A stretch of 48,107 nucleotides of DNA. Origin: Chthoniobacteraceae bacterium (GTDB lineage Bacteria > Verrucomicrobiota > Verrucomicrobiia > Chthoniobacterales > Chthoniobacteraceae). A program made the translations under genes and the position numbers. Each line of letters begins with the position of its first letter. Positions within the stretch are counted from its first letter, which is position 1. Location of the stretch: positions 1 through 48,107 of the forward strand of contig JAQGOL010000016.1 of NCBI GenBank assembly GCA_028293625.1. The letters run 5' to 3'. The notes under the pieces were generated by a model that saw nothing but the letters and a program-made list of their open reading frames with translations, was not told the origin of the DNA and made no database searches. Below, in pieces: positions 1 to 29,000 of this stretch.

Positions 1-295
1 CTGGTGCGCTTGGTTCTGCATTTTCTGGCGTCGGGAGATTGAGAAGATGGATGAAGTTCGCGTTGAGCTGCGAGTAGTCCACCAGCGTCCCGGCGTCGAG
101 AAGTGAGCGGTCTTGGAAGTCTGGTCCAGGAGAGAGGATGATTGGAGTGGGCAAGGCGAATGCGCTTCGAAGCCCTGGCTCTGGAAAAGCGTTTGACTCG
201 CTGTCTTCCGGCTGGATGTCGAAAAGACGTTCATTTCTCGGGGGCTCTCCTATATGCAGAACATATAGTCGGCAGCAGCTGTATTTTTCGGCAGT
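1..295 (-). CDS. partial ORF off the left edge, unknown function, no start codon visible
   Basis: Reading the minus strand from 295 down to the window edge gives about 98 uninterrupted codons with a normal protein-like composition, including the stretches FDIQPEDSESNAF, PTPIILSPGPDFQDR and DYSQLNANFIHLLNLPTPE. An in-frame stop lies at 296-298. There is no ATG after that stop, only rare TTG and GTG codons, so this is either the body of a gene whose 5' end was lost or a fragment. I recognise no family. It lies downstream of the integron integrase on the same strand, behind hairpins and short repeats that could mark a rearrangement. It could also be a chance open frame. Confidence 0.3.
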
Positions 296-383
296 TTACA
301 GGCATGGGAGCTTAAATAGGCAGCGGCTGCATTTTGTGGGTAAAGGCAGCAGCTTGGTTTTTTTACAGCTGCTGTGTTTTGCG
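271..383. repeat. degenerate 'ggcagcrgctg' short repeats
   Basis: Copies of a GGCAGC(A/G)GCT core followed by a T-rich tail start at 271, 319 and 345. A related copy (ACAGCTGCTGTGTTTTGCG) starts at 365. Spacing is irregular (48, 26 and 20 bp), so this is not a clean tandem repeat. The block sits between the start-less left-edge ORF and the 3' side of the integrase. Function is unknown. Confidence 0.45.
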
Positions 384-561: not shown

Positions 562-1632
562 TCAAGAGGTGTCGGCGGGACTGCGGATGCTCATGCCCGG
601 TCGGTTTAGGACGTGAGTGTAGATCATCGTAGTGGAGACATCCTGATGGCCAAGCAGTTCCTGCACGGAGCGGATGTCGTAGCCGTTTTCCAGCAAATGC
701 GTGGCAAAACAATGGCGAAGGGTATGCGGGGTCGCCGGCTTATGAATGCCCGCTTTTCTGACTACCACTTTGATGGCCCGCTGGAGAAGAGTCTCGTGGA
801 GATGATGCCGGCGCACAATGCCCGAACGGGGATCGACCGAAAGGCCTGGAGCAGGAAAAACCCAGAACCAGTCCCAGGTGACGGCGGCATTGGGATACTT
901 GCGGCCAAGCGCATACGGCATTTCCACGCCGGGGGAATGATTGTGGCGATCCCTCTCAAAGAGCCGGCGGCTCTCAGAGAGCTGGGTTTTGAGGCAATCG
1001 ATGGCCGAGTCAGGCAGGAGAGTAATGCGATCCTTGGCGCCTTTGCCGTCGCGCACGCAAATCTGGCGGTAGCCAAAATCGATGTCTTTGATCCGAAGCC
1101 GCAGGCATTCCATAAGCCGCAAGCCGGCGCCGTAAAGAAGGAGCTCTATCAGGCGCCACGGAGGTAGGAGGGCGTCGATTAAAGCGCTGGCTTCCGGGCG
1201 GGTAAGCACAACGGGCAGGTGCCGGGCCGATTTTGCCCGGGCAAAATCTCCGAAATAGCCCGGGTCGACCTGGAGGACTTGTTTATAGAGAAAAACCAAC
1301 GCGTTAAGCGCCTGGTTTTGGGTGGCCGGAGCCACCTCCAGATCGACGGCCAGATGGGTGAGATAAGCGCGAATTTCCGATTCGCCCAGTTCAAGCGGAT
1401 GCCGGATGCCATGGAAGCGGATAAATCGGCGCACCCACCCGGCGTAAGTTTCCTCTGTGCGCAGGCTGTAGTGTTTGTAGCGGCAGACATCGCGCAGCTG
1501 GTCAAGGAGACGGCGCGGTTGCAAAGCATCCGCTTCGGGAGGCAAAAGAGCGTCGCCGGTTTTCGGTGGCGAGGTGGCAGGGGGCGGATCATCGTCGCGA
1601 TTACTGCTCTCATTTCCCTGACTCTCCCTCAT
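562..1632 (-). CDS. intI: integron integrase (tyrosine recombinase, IntI family)
   Basis: Site-specific tyrosine recombinase that would insert and excise gene cassettes between attI and attC sites. The 356 residues include an N-terminal extension of about 40 residues, a SAM-like core-binding domain (about 41-135) and the catalytic domain. The catalytic set is complete: R172 ([10 protein letters not shown]), H303 and R306 ([14 protein letters not shown]), H329 (ELLGHQDV) and nucleophile Y338 (TMIYTHVL). What separates it from XerC/D is the IntI-specific insert around residues 240-285: [21 protein letters not shown] and RRHH. The end, RSPADTS, also fits IntI. The start is the ATG at 1632; no good ribosome site precedes it, and a start further inside is possible. 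A LexA-like box lies 12 bases upstream, which suggests SOS control. No attC cassettes were recognised on either side. The family call is strong, and the gene looks intact. Confidence 0.93.
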
Positions 1633-1643
1633 GGAGTAATATA

Positions 1644-1657
1644 TGTTCGAATGAACA
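1644..1657. promoter_or_regulatory. LexA (SOS) box, verrucomicrobial type, at intI
   Basis: The sequence TGTTC-GAAT-GAACA is a perfect dyad with arms TGTTC and GAACA around four bases. From memory this is exactly the motif reported for LexA of Verrucomicrobia. It lies 12 bases before the integrase start codon, where a repressor would block transcription or initiation. LexA control of integron integrases is established in other phyla. No lexA gene is present in this window, so the call rests on motif match and position. Confidence 0.7.
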
Positions 1658-1727
1658 GGTGGTCAAATCCGGTGAGAACGAGGCGCCGGAGAAGCTTTCT
1701 CGCCCGTGCATTTGGCGTATTGCACAA

Positions 1728-1766: not shown

Positions 1767-2060
1767 CAGAGCACCTGAACCAATGGCCACGCGTCCACTC
1801 GGACCGGCCACGCGTCTGTTGGCATGGGCCGCGCGCCGGATCGCACAAGCCACGTGTCTGCTGGCACTTGCCGCGCGCCGGATTGGACTGGCCACGTGTC
1901 TGTTGGCCTTAGCCGCGCGCCGGACCGGACCGGCCACGTGTCTGTTGGCATCGGCCATGCGTCGGATCAGACCAGACATGTGGCTGCTGACATCAGACGC
2001 GTGTCGGATCAGATCAGACGCGTGGCTTGTCGCATTGGCCGCGTGCCGGTTGGAACAGGT
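1767..2060. repeat. array of 14 degenerate 21-bp repeats
   Basis: From 1788 to 2060 the sequence falls into thirteen consecutive 21-base units, each beginning CAC, CGC or CAT, with a further degenerate unit at 1767. Two unit types alternate in the middle, one like CACGTGTCTGTTGGCATCGGC and one like CGCGCGCCGGATTGGACTGGC (21 bases; pattern given here only to show the phase), giving a 42-bp higher-order period. Because 21 is a multiple of three, several frames are open: plus-strand frames give a heptapeptide pattern with AARRIG/ATCLLA, and the minus strand gives RHVAxxI/RRAAxAN. Coding cannot be excluded, but no frame is clearly preferred. The array lies between intI and the SprT-like gene, where attI and cassettes would be expected. 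From 2061 to 2294 I see nothing further. Confidence 0.75.
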
Positions 2061-2756: not shown

Positions 2757-4160
2757 TCACCCCTTGTTCACCAGGGCGTCCACTTCGGCTTCATAAGTCT
2801 CGAAAGGATCAGGCATGGAGAGGGAATCCTCCATCTGGATGGCGATGGAATCCCAGTTGATGACGTAAGGGATTTCGCGCCCCTGGAAATGTTTGACGGC
2901 GCGGCCGCGTCCGAAAGCGCGCGTGTTTTTGGGCGGCGTGGAGAGTGTTTCCCGGCAGCGGACACTTGCGTTAAAATCGGCAATCACCTTCGCGGGCTTA
3001 AGCGCGAAAAAGAGTCCCTTGGCCGGGTTGATATTGTGGTATTCGAGATCAAGGCTCTGAAGCCACGGGTCGTGCCAGTCGAGTCCTTCGGCTTCGCGAA
3101 AGGTGTCAAGCAGCCACTTTTTTGAAATCCAATCGACCCCGCCGATCAGCCGTTCAGGAGCGGCGCGCAGGGTTTCAAGGGTGAACGCCCAGGTTTCGAG
3201 GATCCAATCGCTTTCCCCGTCGCGGCCCGCGAGATGTTGCTGGGCGTGGGCGAGGAATTGTTCCTGGATGTCGAGCGCGTCGCGAGTGCGTCCATCCTCG
3301 AGCAGCACGACGCCGTGTCCGGTTCCCTCGTGGGAGATTTGCCGGGTTGCGAGGACGGCATCGCGCAAGATCACGTCCTCAGGGAGGGCGCCTTCTTCGA
3401 GCAGCGACAAAAGAAGGGCCGTGGTGCCGATTTTGAGCGCCGTGGCAAAAGGACTGACATTGGAATCGCCCACGAGCAGATGAAGTCGCCAATATTTGAG
3501 GGGATCAGCCAGCGGCTCGTCACGGGCATTGATGATCGCGCGGTTGAATTGAACCCATGGATAATGGTCGTTGACGATGTGGTCGGCGCGTTGCGAGAGC
3601 TGGAAATCAATTTTTTGCCGCGTCCGCGATGGCTCAAAATCGAGCGCGACCGGATTGGCCTGGCCGACGCGACCAGCGCCCGTGAAAATCTGGCGCGTGG
3701 CCAAAAAGGCCAGCAAGGTGCGAAGCACGGGGCCTTGAAACTGCGATTGGCGCCGCATGAGGAAATTCTCATGGCAACCGAAAGTGGCGCCGGTGTGATG
3801 ATCGATATTGTTTTTTACAAATGCGACTTCATCGACGATTCCGAGGTCCTGAAGCATCGCCTGGAGCAGGGTATCGCCGGCAAGATCGTAAGCGACAATG
3901 TCGTGCAGGGAGAGGCACTCCGGGGAAGAGTATTCCAAGTGGCCCATGTCCATGTAAAGGCGGCCGCCGTTCAGCAAAAAACCGCCGTTGCCGGGCGGTT
4001 CCTCGTAGTCGCGATAATGCCGGTCGATTGCGCCGAGCCTGGCTTTGTGAAACGCGTGGTTTTTGATCCGGGCCGGCCACGGATCGAGCCCGGTGCCGGG
4101 TCCGCGATCTCCCATATTCAGACAGCCGTATTCGGTTTCAATGCCGACAACCCTGTTCAC
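2757..4160 (-). CDS. Pup-ligase / depupylase family enzyme (Dop/PafA-like)
   Basis: Carboxylate-amine ligase-fold enzyme related to PafA (attaches Pup or UBact to lysines) and Dop (deamidates Pup and removes it). The 467 residues carry the family motifs: GIETEYG at 6-12 (Mg/ATP-binding glutamates), NGGRLYMD with the catalytic-type Asp71, GHLEYSSPEC, KNNIDHHTGATFGCHENF, QLSQRADHI, INARDEPLAD, HLLVGDSN and KIGTTALLL. The longer region before NGGRLY, the GAGRVG motif and the INWDSI C-terminus resemble Dop more than PafA, while FGCHENF is PafA-like; I cannot decide between them. Translation begins with GTG at 4160. No pup, UBact, proteasome subunit or ARC/Mpa ATPase gene is seen nearby. It lies 134 bases downstream of the zinc-ribbon gene on the same strand and could be cotranscribed with it. 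Confidence 0.88.
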   Translation of the reverse strand: MNRVVGIETEYGCLNMGDRGPGTGLDPWPARIKNHAFHKARLGAIDRHYRDYEEPPGNGGFLLNGGRLYMDMGHLEYSSPECLSLHDIVAYDLAGDTLLQAMLQDLGIVDEVAFVKNNIDHHTGATFGCHENFLMRRQSQFQGPVLRTLLAFLATRQIFTGAGRVGQANPVALDFEPSRTRQKIDFQLSQRADHIVNDHYPWVQFNRAIINARDEPLADPLKYWRLHLLVGDSNVSPFATALKIGTTALLLSLLEEGALPEDVILRDAVLATRQISHEGTGHGVVLLEDGRTRDALDIQEQFLAHAQQHLAGRDGESDWILETWAFTLETLRAAPERLIGGVDWISKKWLLDTFREAEGLDWHDPWLQSLDLEYHNINPAKGLFFALKPAKVIADFNASVRCRETLSTPPKNTRAFGRGRAVKHFQGREIPYVINWDSIAIQMEDSLSMPDPFETYEAEVDALVNKG

Positions 4161-11210: not shown

Positions 11211-15326
<4,116 letters not shown>

Positions 15327-15351
15327 GCGCCTCGATTAAGTAAAACTCAAC

Positions 15352-15395
15352 AACGCCCGGCAGACATGCGTGTCTGCCGGGCGTTTTGTTTTTTT
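15352..15395 (+). terminator. intrinsic terminator of the rpoBC operon
   Basis: A perfect 15-bp stem, AACGCCCGGCAGACA (15352-15366) with TGTCTGCCGGGCGTT (15371-15385), closes on a TGCG loop and runs into TTGTTTTTTT. It sits between rpoC and the convergent DUF4139 gene. The T-run is on the plus strand, so it serves rpoC chiefly. Confidence 0.93.
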
Positions 15396-15401
15396 GGGCG
15401 G

Positions 15402-16826
15402 CTACCAAGTATATTTGACCGTGTAGGTCACTGTGGCTTCTTCGCCGGGTTTTACTGGGACTTTAAATTCGAGGGTTTGGGCATCCTTTTTCTCGAACTC
15501 CTGGCTCTTGGCGGTGATTGCCCAGTTTGGCCACCGGTAAAGATGCTCAACGACACGGATCTCCACCGGCTCTTTCTTGCGATTGCGTAATTTGATTTCG
15601 AAACTCTCCGTGGCGCGATGGTTATCCTCGTCGGCCGCGAAGTGGGTGCGGCGGTGTTCTCCCACAAGATCGAAGCTGTCGCCGACATAAAGGCGCACTG
15701 TTTCATCCTTTGGAGTATGACCAATTTCAGCTTCCCCGATGAACTCGAGTTGGCCACCGGTGTCCTGTTGGTAAAAACGAATCCGGCCTTTGGGTAGTGG
15801 AATGCCAAGATGATTGGCCTCGCTGTTCTTAAACTCGCGGAAAGTGGCAACTTTCTTTTTTGACGACGTGCCGTAATCGGGAACGTTCTGCTGGGCTGAC
15901 TCCACGGGTCCTTCGATATCCGCGCCATCGTAAACGTAAAAACGGTCGGCCTTGATACCGGCGGCGCGGCTGAACTCCACCTGCTTGGTCTCCTTGTCAT
16001 GAAGCGTCGTAGGCTGGGCAAGAGTGTAAAGGTGATATTCGTCGAAGGTTTTTTCGCTGACCTGCGGCTCGGGCGCGGCGGCGAACGCCTCCGCACGCCC
16101 CAGGGGTAAGCTTTTAGGCTGAATCTTGCCCACATCGCCCGCCATCAGCTTCACCTTTGCGTTTGTAAAGGTGGCGCCGCTTTCATTTTTCATGGTGATC
16201 CAGCCCGTTAAATCGAGCGCTCCGCCATTTTCCGGGGACACCACATTATAACTGGCTTCCCAACTGAAGCCGCTGCTCACATAGGCAAGCTCGGCGTTGA
16301 ACCTGGCTGCGGCAGGCGACTCAATCTTCCATGTGAGCGCCGGCTTAAGCTGCGAATCGTTGCCGAGCGAAGGGAAGCGCGGTTCGCCGGGCAGCGTGAA
16401 TTGCAGCTGGCCGTCTACTTCAATGATAGGCGCTATATTTTCCCCGCCGGGAACGTAACCGCTTCGAATGACCTTTCCCATGATGATACGGTCGGCCTTT
16501 TGCGGTTCCGGTTTGGCGAACGTAAGGGTTTGTCCCTCGAAAAGGGAGAGGAGCAGCACTTCGGAGACGGGATCGTTCCGGTAATTCTGTTCGAGAACAC
16601 GCAGGGCATTCTTTCCGGCCGGGTCGCGGAGAATCACGGAATCGGGCTCAACCAAAGCGGTCACACCGGCAAATCTCGCGTCATTCGTTCCGGCTTTGAG
16701 ATCAAGCGGCACGGTATCGCGCACGACCGCGAAGTTTTGGTTGTAAATAGTGAGAGCCGGGTCGGCGTTGCAAACTGTTATCGCAAGCACAAACACGCAG
16801 GTGCATAAAATCCGGGTAGGTTTCAT
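15402..16826 (-). CDS. secreted DUF4139 domain protein
   Basis: About 474 residues from the ATG at 16826, which begins a signal peptide (MKPTRILCTCVFVLAITVCNA); an ATG three codons earlier is possible. The mature part starts DPALTIYNQNFAVVRDTVPLDL, typical of DUF4139 proteins, and continues with predicted beta-rich segments (AELAYVSSGFSWEASYNVV, LDLTGWITMKNESGATF) to a C-terminal beta domain ending VTYTVKYTW. These proteins are exported and widespread in Gram-negative and PVC bacteria; their role is unknown. The gene stands alone between the rpoC terminator (convergent) and the adenosyltransferase (divergent). Confidence 0.8.
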   Translation of the reverse strand: MKPTRILCTCVFVLAITVCNADPALTIYNQNFAVVRDTVPLDLKAGTNDARFAGVTALVEPDSVILRDPAGKNALRVLEQNYRNDPVSEVLLLSLFEGQTLTFAKPEPQKADRIIMGKVIRSGYVPGGENIAPIIEVDGQLQFTLPGEPRFPSLGNDSQLKPALTWKIESPAAARFNAELAYVSSGFSWEASYNVVSPENGGALDLTGWITMKNESGATFTNAKVKLMAGDVGKIQPKSLPLGRAEAFAAAPEPQVSEKTFDEYHLYTLAQPTTLHDKETKQVEFSRAAGIKADRFYVYDGADIEGPVESAQQNVPDYGTSSKKKVATFREFKNSEANHLGIPLPKGRIRFYQQDTGGQLEFIGEAEIGHTPKDETVRLYVGDSFDLVGEHRRTHFAADEDNHRATESFEIKLRNRKKEPVEIRVVEHLYRWPNWAITAKSQEFEKKDAQTLEFKVPVKPGEEATVTYTVKYTW

Positions 16827-16974
16827 CAACGGCATTATCCAACGCTGTTAACCCACAGATCCACTGATTTGATTTTGAAGCGGATGATTTGAAGGCAGAG
16901 TGCCGCGCGGGAAGATCGTGAAATCGGGTGCAAAGGCGCTTTCCGCCTTTTGTTGGGCCCGCTACAACGCGGCC

Positions 16975-17517
16975 ATGTCCATTGCCACAAAGACCGGAGA
17001 TAACGGCAGCACCGCGCTCATGTATGGTCGGCGGGTTTCAAAGACCGATCCGCGCATCGTCGCCAATGGCGCTTGCGACGAACTGAATGCCGCGCTCGGC
17101 ATGGTGCGCGCTTTTTGCGAGGAGAGCTTTGTGACCGCACCGCTCTTTGAAGTGCAAAAAGAGCTGGTGACCCTGATGGGCGAGTTGGCGGTCGATACGG
17201 CGGATCGGGAACGCTACACGGCGGGTGGATATGAGTTTATCACGGCGGCAATGGTCGACCGCCTGACGGGTTACATTGATGACCTTGAAAAAAATCACCG
17301 GATCAGTTTCAAACATTGGGCCACGCCCGGGGCGACCCGGGAAAGCGCTCTGCTCGATGTGGCCCGCACCGTTTGCCGGCGGGCGGAACGGGCAGTGGTG
17401 GAGCTTGGGGAAAAAGGGTATCCGGTGAATGCGGAGAGTGTCAGATACCTGAACCGACTTTCGGATCTCTGCTGGCTTTATGCGCGGTTTGTTGAGACGA
17501 AAGCGGGCGTGGCGTAA
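16975..17517 (+). CDS. PduO-type cob(I)alamin adenosyltransferase
   Basis: Transfers the adenosyl group of ATP to cob(I)alamin to make coenzyme B12. The 180 residues form the expected four- to five-helix bundle with the family motifs SIATKTGDNGSTALMYG (ATP-binding N-terminus), DELNAALGMVR, ATPGATRESALLDVARTVCRRAERAVV (active-site helix with conserved Arg and Glu) and YLNRLSDLCWLYAR. The frame is open upstream to 16900, but MSIATKTGD at 16975 is the family start. No other B12 gene is in the window, which suggests salvage or use by a distant mutase. It is monocistronic here. Confidence 0.93.
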   Translation: MSIATKTGDNGSTALMYGRRVSKTDPRIVANGACDELNAALGMVRAFCEESFVTAPLFEVQKELVTLMGELAVDTADRERYTAGGYEFITAAMVDRLTGYIDDLEKNHRISFKHWATPGATRESALLDVARTVCRRAERAVVELGEKGYPVNAESVRYLNRLSDLCWLYARFVETKAGVA

Positions 17518-17593
17518 AAAAGGAGCGATTAAGGTTGTGGGGCGGGAGGAAGACACTTGCGCGAATCGGGACTTCGCGCACCATAGGCGTTGA

Positions 17594-19651
17594 ATGAAAT
17601 TCCCCCCGTTTTTTGCCCTGTTGCTGGCGCTTTTAACCGGAAGCATTTCGGCCCTGGCAATTTCCGCACCGACCATTCTCGATGCCTCGGTGAGTTTGAA
17701 TGACGGGGCGGGAAAGCTCTTTTTAAACGCCACGGTGAAGCCCAACGAAGGCTTAACGAAGGTCAAGTTTAGTTATGGCCAGGAGGGGAGTTCGAAATAC
17801 GAAGCGACTACCGAAGAAAAAATCGTCACTGGCGATTCGGATCCGGACGGAGTTGGGAGCAAGGTTTCCACACAGATAACCGGCTTGATCGGCGGGAAAA
17901 AATACCGGTTTAAAGTGATCGCGACCAATGCGGCCGGGGCTGTTTCCAGCACGGAGTTTAATTTCACCGACGCAATCCATGCTTATCAGCCGGCGATTAC
18001 CGCGGAGGCCGCCAGGGTGACGAGCGGTACGGAGGCAATAGTCGGTGCGACGCTTACGGGAAACGGCAGTGAGAATTACACGGTCGATTTTGTTTATGGC
18101 CTCTCGGAGGCAGCTTTGGATCAGATCGTATCCGGTGGAGCGGTCGAGAAAGACGCCGTTGGACAAAAAATCGTGGTCACACTCGGTAATATGGAAACGA
18201 CCGGGAAGCCGCCGCTCACTCGTGAAACCACTTACTTTTACCGGATCGTCCTGAAGCTGAACGGCGTGCCCGCCGATACCCTGCCACATGCGGGGCAGGT
18301 TCCCGGCAATGCGACGGCGTTTACATTTAAGACGACCAACCATGCGCCTGTTACCAAGGACATTACGCTTGTCCTGCTTAACCTCAGTCCAGTGGTGGTT
18401 GATGTCCTTAAGAATAACAAAACGGATCAGGATGGCGATACCATCCGGCTGGCTGCAATCGCGCTCGCTCCTTCCCACGGCACGGCAGTCGTTCGCGGCA
18501 AGACGATCCTTTATACGCCGGGAGCGGATTTTATCGGCACCGATTTGTTTAGCTATTCTGTCGAGGACGGCCGGGAAGGGGTATCTGTTGGAAACGTCAT
18601 TGTCCGCAGTGCCCGGGCGGCGGTGAAAGGGCGGCAATCCGCGTTCATCACGGATTCATCAGGCAAAAATGTGGGAATGGTCCGGCTGCAAGTGGGCGTG
18701 AATGGAGCCTTTAGCGGTAAAGTGGAGATCAAAGGGAAGAGCTATCAGGTCGTCGGGGAGTTTGATGCCGAAGGGCGGTTCCACGGCAGGGCCGAAGGAG
18801 AGGACGGCACTCTTGAGATCAGTTTCGGTGTGGCGGTCGCGGGCGACGGATCAACTTTGACCGGGTCGTTCGGCGGCGGCCAATGGAGTGCTTCCTCATC
18901 GCTGACTCCTATCAGCGCGGAGAAGCAGGTGGAGCTTGCGGGCCGATATACCTTGGAATTGCCGGCAGGCTCCGTTGCGACGCCCATCACGACAGAAGTC
19001 GGCGTGGACGTTACTGACACCCCTGCCACGACCACCGCGGCGGCGGGTTGGGCGGTAATCAAACTCAACGAGTCGGGCGAGGCCCGGATCAAAGGAAAAA
19101 CCAGCGATGGTGAGTCGTTTTCCACGCGCGCCGTCCTTGGTGGGACCAGCGAGGCGCCGACCTTGAACTTCTACGCGGTCCGGGATCGGGACGAACTTTC
19201 AAGTGTTCTAATGCTGGGAGAAACCGTCACGGGGAGTGTTGTCGTATCCGGCCATGGAGATGACCAGACGATTGCGGTGGACGGCGCGCCGTATCATCCG
19301 CCGCAGGACCGTGGCCGGGTGCTTGAGACGGCGGAGAACGAAGGCAAATTAGGCACCATCACTATCACCGGGCCGGATGGCGGCCCTGTGACCCACGCGC
19401 TGCGGTTCAGCAAAGAGAACAAGATTGAAGTGCTCGATGCAAACGGGGATGGACTCAGCCTGAAAGTCGATAAGGATTCGCTGAAGTTCATCGGCAAAAT
19501 CCGGCCCAGCGATTTCAGTGATGATCGTGAAAAGATCAGCGGTGTATTTATTCAAAGCAAAGGAACCGGACGCGGCCAGGCGCATGGGGACGATGGAGTC
19601 CGCCGGGTGGAAATCATGTTGACGCCGACGCGGGCCAGCACGACGCCGTAG
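17594..19651 (+). CDS. large exported protein with FN3-like and cadherin/Ig-like domains
   Basis: A 685-residue protein with a signal peptide (MKFPPFFALLLALLTGSISALA, cleavage near 22-24). Then come two FN3-like beta domains (about 25-110 and 115-215; GLIGGKKYRFKVIATNAAGA is typical). A cadherin/Ig-like repeat follows at about 220-320 (VVVDVLKNNKTDQDGDTI, ILYTPGADFIGTDLFSY). The C-terminal half (about 330-685) is Gly-rich beta sequence with no family I recognise; its pattern GSFGGGQWSASSS resembles domains of PVC exported proteins. No membrane anchor or sorting signal is seen at the end. It probably acts in the periplasm or on the cell surface. No operon partner is evident. Confidence 0.75.
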   Translation: MKFPPFFALLLALLTGSISALAISAPTILDASVSLNDGAGKLFLNATVKPNEGLTKVKFSYGQEGSSKYEATTEEKIVTGDSDPDGVGSKVSTQITGLIGGKKYRFKVIATNAAGAVSSTEFNFTDAIHAYQPAITAEAARVTSGTEAIVGATLTGNGSENYTVDFVYGLSEAALDQIVSGGAVEKDAVGQKIVVTLGNMETTGKPPLTRETTYFYRIVLKLNGVPADTLPHAGQVPGNATAFTFKTTNHAPVTKDITLVLLNLSPVVVDVLKNNKTDQDGDTIRLAAIALAPSHGTAVVRGKTILYTPGADFIGTDLFSYSVEDGREGVSVGNVIVRSARAAVKGRQSAFITDSSGKNVGMVRLQVGVNGAFSGKVEIKGKSYQVVGEFDAEGRFHGRAEGEDGTLEISFGVAVAGDGSTLTGSFGGGQWSASSSLTPISAEKQVELAGRYTLELPAGSVATPITTEVGVDVTDTPATTTAAAGWAVIKLNESGEARIKGKTSDGESFSTRAVLGGTSEAPTLNFYAVRDRDELSSVLMLGETVTGSVVVSGHGDDQTIAVDGAPYHPPQDRGRVLETAENEGKLGTITITGPDGGPVTHALRFSKENKIEVLDANGDGLSLKVDKDSLKFIGKIRPSDFSDDREKISGVFIQSKGTGRGQAHGDDGVRRVEIMLTPTRASTTP

Positions 19652-26000: not shown

Positions 26001-29000
26001 GCAGGCGGCAGTTTCGCCGCCGGCGGCTATACCGATACGGTTAGCTCCGAATTCGACAACAGCATTGGCGGACGGCAGGCGTGGAGCGGGAATAGCGGAG
26101 GATTTATTAATTCGGTTGTTAATCTGCCGGCGGCTTCCCTGGGACATGACGTGCAGTTCCGTTGGCGGATTGCATCAGACAGCAGCATTTCCTACGAGGG
26201 GTGGAATATTGATGATGTGGCGTTTACTAAACCCGCGCCGGCTTCCACGCTTGCTCTTACTCTGCATGTAGATAGCCCTGCCGGGCCGGGACTTACCCGG
26301 ATTATTAGTAAAGCGACGATCTCAGATGACGGCACCAACGGTTTGGATCCAACGGCCGATAACTCCAAAACCGACACCGACGTTGTCAGCGCAATCGCCG
26401 ATCTGAGCGTTTCAATCAGCGATGGCGGGGTGACTCCCGTTCCAGGCGGCAATTTAGCGTACACGCTTAACTACGCCAATACTGGCGACCGCAGTGTCAC
26501 GGGAGTTAAGTTGAAGCAGACGCTCCCTGCCGGAACAACTTTTGATCCCACCGCGAGCACCTCGGGATGGACTCAGGTTTTCGGTGGCACTTACGAGTAT
26601 GATCTCGGCACGCTCAATGGCGGAGGAACAAGCGGTTCGGTTGCTTTTGTTGTCCATGTGACCAGCCCTGCCGCGGCGGGACTGGAGACTTTATCCACCA
26701 CGGTTAGTATCGACTCCAGCCAGGAGGATCCCGCAAATGGCCCCGATGGTTTTCCGTCGGATAATATCGCATCCAAAACCACGGCGCTCAATGCAGCGCC
26801 CGATCTCCGCCTGCTTGCCACCGATAATGGCAATCCCGGGATCAATCCCGGTGAAACCGTAGTCTACGCGCTCAAATACTCCAATGCCGGCAACCAGCAT
26901 ACGGCAGGGGTCGTGATTTCTGAGGCTGTGCCGGCGGGAACCAGTTTTAATCCCTCGGCAAGCACGCCTGGGTGGACGACCGGAGACGGTATTCATTACA
27001 CTTTCCCGGTTGGGACTCTGAACGCGGGCGACAACGGCAGCGTCAACTTCGCGCTGACGGCAAATAATCCTTACACGAATGGCAATTCAATTAGCGATAC
27101 TGCAGCCATTGATGACAACCATGCCAGCGGTTTGGATGCGAATCCGGCTGATAATAGCTCGACAGACACAACTCCGATCCTTCTTGGCGGCGATCTAAGT
27201 ATTACTAAAACCGATGGTGCATTGACGGCTGTGCCGGGCGCCTTGGTGACCTATACAATCACGGTCGGCAATAGCAGCGCAGGTGCGCAAACTGCTTTTA
27301 ACACCAAAGTAACTGATGCTTTTCCTGCTTCCTTGGCTGGTGTAACCTACACCGCAAGCGGCGCGGGTGGAGCGACAGGTTTTACAACCAGCGGTGGCGG
27401 CAACATCAACGACATTGTAGCCCTGCCGGTCGGGAGTACAATTACTTATATCGTCAAAGGGACTCTTCTTTCCAGTGCAACCGGGACCCTGGTCAACACA
27501 GCCACCGTCACCCCTGATCCTTCGTTTACCGATAATAATCCGCTCAATAACAGCGCCACTGATACCGATACCCTGACTCCGCAGGCAGACCTTCAGATCA
27601 CCAAAACGGATGGCAAAACTTCCGCTGTGCCGGGCACGGCGAATACTTACACAATCGTGGTAAGTAATAGCGGTCCAAGCGACGTGACCGGCGCAAGAGT
27701 TGTGGATACGTTTACCACAAGTTTTTTGACTGGGGTTACCTATACAACTTCAGCGACGGGCGGCGCGAACGGTTTTTCAAGCGGGGCTGGAAACATTGAT
27801 CAGTTCGTGAATTTGCCAAGCGGCAGTTCCATCACCTACACGGTCAACGGCATCATCGCTCCGAATGCCGTGGGCACTCTCAATAACACGGCTTCTGTGA
27901 CGGCGCCAAATGGAGTGTCAGACGCAACACCTTCCAATAACAACGCGACCGATATCGATACGCTGACGCCGCAGGCGGATCTCCAGATCACCAAGACAGA
28001 CGGAAAGACCTCAGCGGTTCCCGGCACGGCGAATACTTACACGATTGTGGTGAGCAACAGCGGCCCAAGCGACGTGAGCGGCGCGACGATTGCCGATACA
28101 TTCCCAGGCATCTTTGGCGGCGTAACTTACACGGTGACGCAAACCGGCGGAGCAAGCGGCTTTTCCAATGGGAGCGGTAATCTGAACCAGACGGTGAACC
28201 TGCCATCCGGAAGCACCATTACTTACACCGTCCTCGGGACGATCAGTGCAGGGGCGGCCGGCACGCTGAGCAACACGGCAACGATCACGGCGCCGGCTGG
28301 CGTGACAGATGGGAATTTGGTGAATAACAGTGCAACCGATAATGATGCATTGGGATCGCAGGCAGATCTCCAGATCACCAAGACAGACGGAAAGACCTCA
28401 GCGGTGCCCGGCACGGCGAATACTTACACGATTGTGGTGAGCAACAGCGGCCCAAGCGACGTGAGCGGCGCGACGATTGCCGATACATTCCCAGGCATTT
28501 TTGGTGGCGTGACTTACACGGCGACGCAAACCGGCGGAGCAAGCGGCTTTTCCAATGGCAGCGGTAATCTGAACCAGACGGTGAACCTGCCGTCCGGAAG
28601 CACGATTACTTACACGGTGCTCGGGACAATCAATGCAGGGGCGAGTGGCACGCTAAGCAACACGGCAACGATCACGGCGCCGGCCGGCGTGACAGACGCA
28701 ACACCTTCCAATAACAACGCGACCGATATCGATACGCTGACGCCGCAGGCGGATCTCCAGATCACCAAGACAGACGGGAAGACTTCAGCGGTGCCCGGCA
28801 CGGCCAATACTTACACGATTGTGGTGAGCAACAGCGGCCCAAGCGACGTGAGCGGCGCGACGATTGCCGATACATTCCCAGGCATTTTTGGTGGTGTGAC
28901 TTACACGGCGACGCAAACCGGCGGAGCAAGCGGCTTTTCCAATGGCAGCGGTAATCTGAACCAGACGGTGAACCTGCCATCCGGAAGCACGATTACTTAC

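Follow-up and report, generated by a model that had tools for sequence, protein, structure and literature searches.

Integron integrase genes under LexA control have been described for chromosomal integrons (Vibrio intIA) and for class 1 integrons (intI1). In a survey of 1,103 intI promoters in which 15 motifs were searched, only E. coli-type boxes were found, and LexA control of integron integrases was concluded to be restricted to hosts with an E. coli-type LexA motif; in the sections of that survey drawn on here, the absence of other motifs is treated as needing explanation (Cambray et al., 2011; PMC3108266). As far as these sections go, the locus described here resembles Vibrio intIA and intI1 in having a LexA operator at the intI promoter beside the -10 hexamer and an integrase that is expected, here from sequence alone, to be damage-inducible (PMC3108266). 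It differs in its operator, TGTTC-N4-GAACA instead of CTGT-N8-ACAG, and in the apparent position of attI, 3′ of intI. A non-E. coli LexA box at intI is a new variant relative to this survey, as far as the sections used report it, because only E. coli-type boxes were found there; a literature search that took in a minority of the relevant subscription papers returned no statement of such a box. In Treponema integrons, transcription of intI runs toward attI, the same way as the cassettes, which is the arrangement presumed here, although Treponema belongs to an unrelated phylum and LexA is unmentioned in the part of that account used (PMC3607928). The LexA regulon of Verrucomicrobia, according to the excerpt consulted, includes a uracil-DNA-glycosylase-type repair system (PMC8565304).

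The window (the whole stretch of DNA that was analysed, 48,107 nucleotides, contig C29 of a Chthoniobacteraceae genome of 6.83 Mb in 43 contigs) carries intI at 562..1632 on the minus strand, with an ATG start and an intact reading frame of 356 aa. The initial annotation had called this ORF an integron integrase, and the profile search agreed, the product scoring 433.8 bits against TIGR02249 with a curated cut-off of 265. The alignment with the solved Vibrio IntI 2a3v (E 2e-89) spanned residues 43-353 and covered the catalytic patches, and the motifs GLRLMEC, GKG, HTLRH, LGH and IYTH, which we take to be the patches of catalytic residues, were present. Adjoining intI is a gene for an SprT-like protein (2295-2744; Pfam score 25.1 bits, slightly below the cut-off of 25.6), and 2757-4160 encodes a protein that seems to resemble the Pup ligase/deamidase family.

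The sequence TGTTCGAATGAACA at 1644-1657 is an exact TGTTC-N4-GAACA palindrome, read as TGTTCATTCGAACA on the minus strand in the direction of intI, and is the predicted LexA operator. The claim of a perfect box at the start of intI was thus borne out, and the palindrome is the sole exact match in the 48,107 bases, versus 0.06 expected from dinucleotide shuffles of the window (6 of 100 shuffles contained one). Scored with a matrix built from 13 lexA-promoter boxes, it reached 19.7 bits (maximum 22.8), and the runner-up site in the window 9.6. Its distance to the ATG at 1632 is 11 bases, where 12 had been given. It is one mismatch away from CTGT-N8-ACAG (CTGTTCATTCGAACAT) and hence does not count as an E. 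coli-type operator.

A consensus scan of 1500-2300 returned a sole sigma70-like promoter, TTGACC-17-TATATT on the minus strand (-35 hexamer at 1661..1666, -10 hexamer at 1638..1643), which matches the consensus at 10 of 12 positions; 0.3 such sites were expected in shuffles. The 17-base spacer is made up of the 14-base box and three further bases, with the box directly abutting the -10 hexamer. The box therefore lies between -35 and -10, the classic repressor position, and overlaps the core promoter, as an operator of the LexA regulon should. The -10 hexamer ends 5 bases ahead of the annotated ATG, which places the predicted +1 at or inside this codon and makes the start codon of intI uncertain; the message may be leaderless, or translation may begin at a codon further downstream.

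The host has a canonical LexA: one match was found in the genome (153.7 bits, cut-off 110.95, profile search), with LexA_DNA_bind and Peptidase_S24 domains. Its own lexA gene carries TGTTCACTAGAACA, the same palindrome, running into its ATG; the next gene is of the DNA polymerase IV type (partial in the stretch examined). The initial annotation had read the intI box as a host-type LexA motif and had named a genome without lexA, or native LexA sites of a different sequence, as grounds for giving up that reading; neither was found, and the genome combines a canonical LexA with a native motif identical to the intI site, as membership of intI in the regulon presupposes. Across the family, 15 genomes had an above-cutoff lexA, and in 12 of them an exact box was present at its start (one locus examined per genome, own genome included), with exact palindrome arms and varied centres, in five genera. 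The above-cutoff lexA genes of G413, G415 and G399 had no exact box at their start (one locus each). The Verrucomicrobia LexA motif TGTTC-N4-GAACA was reportedly published by Erill et al. in 2016, and the box at intI is identical to that motif; given this later date, the motif was probably not among the 15 searched in the intI promoter survey.

Two other types of lexA promoter were noted. In genera g199, g204 and g205, diverged LexA-like genes scoring below the cut-off (L199-L203, L205, L207-L211) had no canonical box; a CGTG...CACG palindrome was seen by eye before the start in L199, L200, L201, L203, L207, L209 and L211, and something related to it, also by eye, in the remaining four, which could possibly reflect a switch of LexA motif inside one family. 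In family f2 (L290-L302), 13 of the 16 lexA genes examined shared TGTTCATTTGAACT, a variant that differs from the box by one base, has a fixed centre and in most cases precedes the lexA start by about 50 bp.

The whole genome contains 12 exact TGTTC-N4-GAACA sites, compared with 5 for the reversed control pattern. The suggestion that intI shares its motif with repair genes of the same genome held for lexA, for an imuA-like/imuB-like pair and for a radical-SAM gene, and failed for recA. An exact box precedes the imuA-like gene, which is followed by the imuB-like gene (both scoring below the curated NCBIfam cut-offs), and another is found at the repair-type radical-SAM gene (TIGR03916, 574 bits). 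The recA gene of the same genome has no box, its best site having 3 mismatches, and was rejected as a boxed SOS gene. Five exact sites, inside dnaE (C11), on C6 (two), on C41 and on C43, were set aside as background, the reversed control having also yielded 5. One further exact box (C21, L009 1463-1476) precedes, by about 70 bp, a gyrB/parE-like ORF, which is possibly an SOS-controlled topoisomerase.

The distribution of the box at intI was examined across the phylum. Genes for intI were found in 108 of 387 genomes sampled from the phylum, in 70 of 213 genomes of the order and, at a laxer threshold, in 13 of 40 family genomes. From among the matches listed, 126 non-own loci were examined (29 from the phylum sample, 37 from the family and order, and 60 more); three with <75 bp upstream (L025, L059, L235) were dropped, and the remaining 123 were scanned over at least 81 and up to 400 bp upstream plus 60 bp downstream. 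An exact box was found at 0/123 of these upstream regions, among the matches listed, one having a site with 1 mismatch and 18 a site with 2, and a conserved intI box throughout the phylum was rejected on this count. The one-mismatch site, TGTTCATATGCACA in G460 (L239), overlaps a possible start codon at -133 from the IntI core; the lexA of G460 carries an exact box, and this intI is possibly a second boxed case, at a level near chance for the amount of DNA scanned. Exact scans of whole loci (30 loci, and 47 loci of which some had partial intI) returned the own site only. Genomes with a boxed lexA and an unboxed intI include G388 of the same genus and G402 and G405 of the same family. In a quick IntI tree of 72 hand-chosen rows, the window sequence belongs to a starred six-member clade with G388, G398, G402, G413 and G419, and the exact box is absent at the intI of all five neighbours.

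The initial annotation had left it between an SOS-integron link that was kept and one that was re-evolved. The first alternative finds no support, given the 0/123 count among the matches listed and the unboxed clade neighbours, and a local gain fits. Gain on the branch of this genome is the simplest reading because lexA-boxed relatives and clade neighbours have an unboxed intI; the link between SOS and intI looks locally gained, and the pattern suggests that the operator evolved separately from the E. coli-type one.

The same data bear on a different origin, in which an older E. coli-type box (CTGT-N8-ACAG) at a proteobacterial-type intI was re-tuned to suit the LexA of Verrucomicrobia. In favour of this, TGT-N8-ACA is common to both motifs, and the box is a single mismatch from the E. 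coli-type pattern. Named intI relatives (80 found, 3 too short, 77 tested, some of the records being contigs of the order set) had an exact verrucomicrobial box in 0/77 cases and an exact E. coli-type box in 8/77; L134 from Sulfuritalea is among the latter and also lies 1 mismatch from the verrucomicrobial box, as does L113 from Desulfococcaceae. Within the order, the intI of G490 (L084) is preceded, at about -130 from the IntI core, by CTGTAATTAATTACAG, a perfect palindrome of the E. coli type and the only exact one among the 123 upstream regions. When other operators were sought in 39 order loci, own locus included (GTTC-N4-GAAC, TTCA-N2-TGAA, TGTA-N6-TACA, CGTG-N4-8-CACG and TGT-N8-ACA), the matches besides the own site were G490 (TGTA-N6-TACA) and a looser TGT-N8-ACA at L094. 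At the intI genes of the five clade neighbours, however, the nearest approach to an E. coli-type box has at least 2 mismatches, and G490 belongs to a different IntI clade. A continuous chain leading from an E. coli-type box to this one is thus not seen, and re-tuning appears unlikely.

Two further intI copies are present in the genome, on contigs C19 and C33. The C19 copy is a pseudogene with deletions and frameshifts, and the C33 copy breaks off after about 200 bases, where the contig ends. The arrangement TTGACC-N3-box-TATATT is common to all three, with an identical -10 hexamer; the 10 bases of the box arms are invariant, and the N4 centre differs in C33. In the 29-bp promoter core, 25/29 columns are identical, compared with 264/400 in non-coding 1691-2090 (Fisher p 0.016), a weak test that sets three duplicate sequences against upstream DNA lying farther away. 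In the 24 bp next to the core (1667-1690), conservation is nearly as high (20/24 columns). As the three copies are duplicates and not independent, their agreement lends mild support only. Upstream of intI are 42-bp tandem repeats with a 21-bp sub-period, equal to two helical turns (1784..2049, no strand assigned), which are present in C19 and C33 as well. When DNA of the element was sought in the 213 order genomes, the non-own matches listed lay inside intI or no more than about 30 bp from its end, and none of those listed fell in the repeats or the promoter.

The copies also raise the question of whether the palindrome arose by chance in an ancestral intI promoter and was then copied with the element; LexA might bind such a site with no SOS control having been selected. 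The relatedness of the copies by duplication (76-85% identity), the 0/123 boxed intI upstream regions elsewhere in the phylum among the matches listed, the 5/12 exact genomic sites that look like background and the near-equal conservation of the 24 bp beside the core are all compatible with such an accident. Against it, an exact box at <=100 bp from one given gene has a chance of about 0.7-1.8 x 10^-4, or about 10^-4 per gene; this one sits inside the promoter spacer, and its arms are unchanged in three copies, whereas roughly one third of the columns at 1691-2090 vary. A box of the native motif in the spacer would be expected to repress even if born by chance. We consider a purely accidental palindrome quite improbable. 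Binding of the site by IntI itself, or by a different regulator that recognizes a similar palindrome, is very improbable indeed, since lexA start codons of five family genera and SOS-type genes of the own genome carry the same palindrome, while the attI-type repeats lie elsewhere (271-381) and nothing supports such a binder directly.

LexA control of intI is very likely, because the box lies in the promoter spacer, matches the native LexA motif, recurs at the other intI copies of the genome and is found at lexA in 12/15 family genomes. In the undamaged cell, LexA bound to the box between -35 and -10 would block RNA polymerase at intI; upon DNA damage, activated RecA would promote self-cleavage of LexA, and with LexA lost, intI would be transcribed and IntI would recombine cassettes. 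We infer LexA binding, repression, induction and recombination activity from the arrangement of these sequences. The operator would have arisen in the own lineage, very probably Chthoniobacterales, and passed into three intI copies by duplication, and would not be an heirloom of an ancestral verrucomicrobial integron. Taken as a whole, this proposal of a LexA operator, a damage-induced intI and gain in the lineage followed by duplication, with no ancestral verrucomicrobial inheritance, is one that we hold to be probable with considerable confidence.

An attI-like region with four 18-nt repeats of the GGCAGCAGCTG type lies 3′ of intI at 271..381 (minus strand). The homology of the window with C19 ends at TATATGTT (260-262, minus strand), presumed from this boundary to be the GTT triplet of attI recombination; beyond it C19 continues with AGGC (GTTAGGC) and the window with CTGC (GTTCTGC). 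By the same boundary, 1..259 (minus strand) may be the start of a first cassette cut by the contig end. In G387, of the same genus, GCAGCAGCCGC-type sequences were seen by eye at the matching place 3′ of three intI copies (L333, L334, L335); GTTAGGC is found at the 3′ junction in two of the three, the copy on C60 being without it, and the DNA after each copy differs. On C60 of G387 an attC-like site follows further on, and a second one was spotted by eye. The repeats and the GTT boundary of the window resemble this pattern, as a putative attI recognized by sequence, and together these features place attI probably 3′ of intI.

A strict scan for attC-like sites found none in the window, C19 or C33, and a 47-nt candidate at 26465 from a looser scan was not believed. 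A genome-wide attC half-site pattern gave 3 matches, compared with 14 for the reversed control, and the count itself is therefore no evidence for attC. Two of the three matches fall on C36, in an array-like region at the contig end (L329, G000, 15266-18416) where six small same-strand ORFs, a selection among overlapping ORFs, alternate with three attC-like sites; one ORF encodes an ankyrin protein. Control scans for attC-like sites gave 0 matches, both in shuffled windows (3) and in other loci (30 kb). We take the region on C36 to be a probable cassette array of this genome and a candidate partner of the intI of the window.

The stretch from the 3′ end of intI to attI yielded no minus-strand terminator-like site, and positions 1-1500 no sigma70-like promoter. 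With attI apparently located 3′ of intI and no such site intervening, read-through from the intI promoter into the cassettes under SOS conditions is possible. A stronger version, in which the LexA-repressed intI promoter would also be the main cassette promoter and damage would bring about recombinase and newest cassettes together from one SOS operon, follows from this position of attI and from cassettes that would be co-directional; two weak minus-strand terminator-like sites inside intI count against it, and we regard it as doubtful. Were it correct, genes captured recently would be expressed chiefly when DNA is damaged. Damage-dependent expression of cassettes via the intI promoter was not found described for any integron in the literature examined.

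Within one genus, the intI of this genome (G000) is boxed and that of G388 is unboxed, and the same operator is present at both lexA genes. A separate gain with an operator native to the host would show SOS control of gene capture to be favoured so strongly that it evolves anew.
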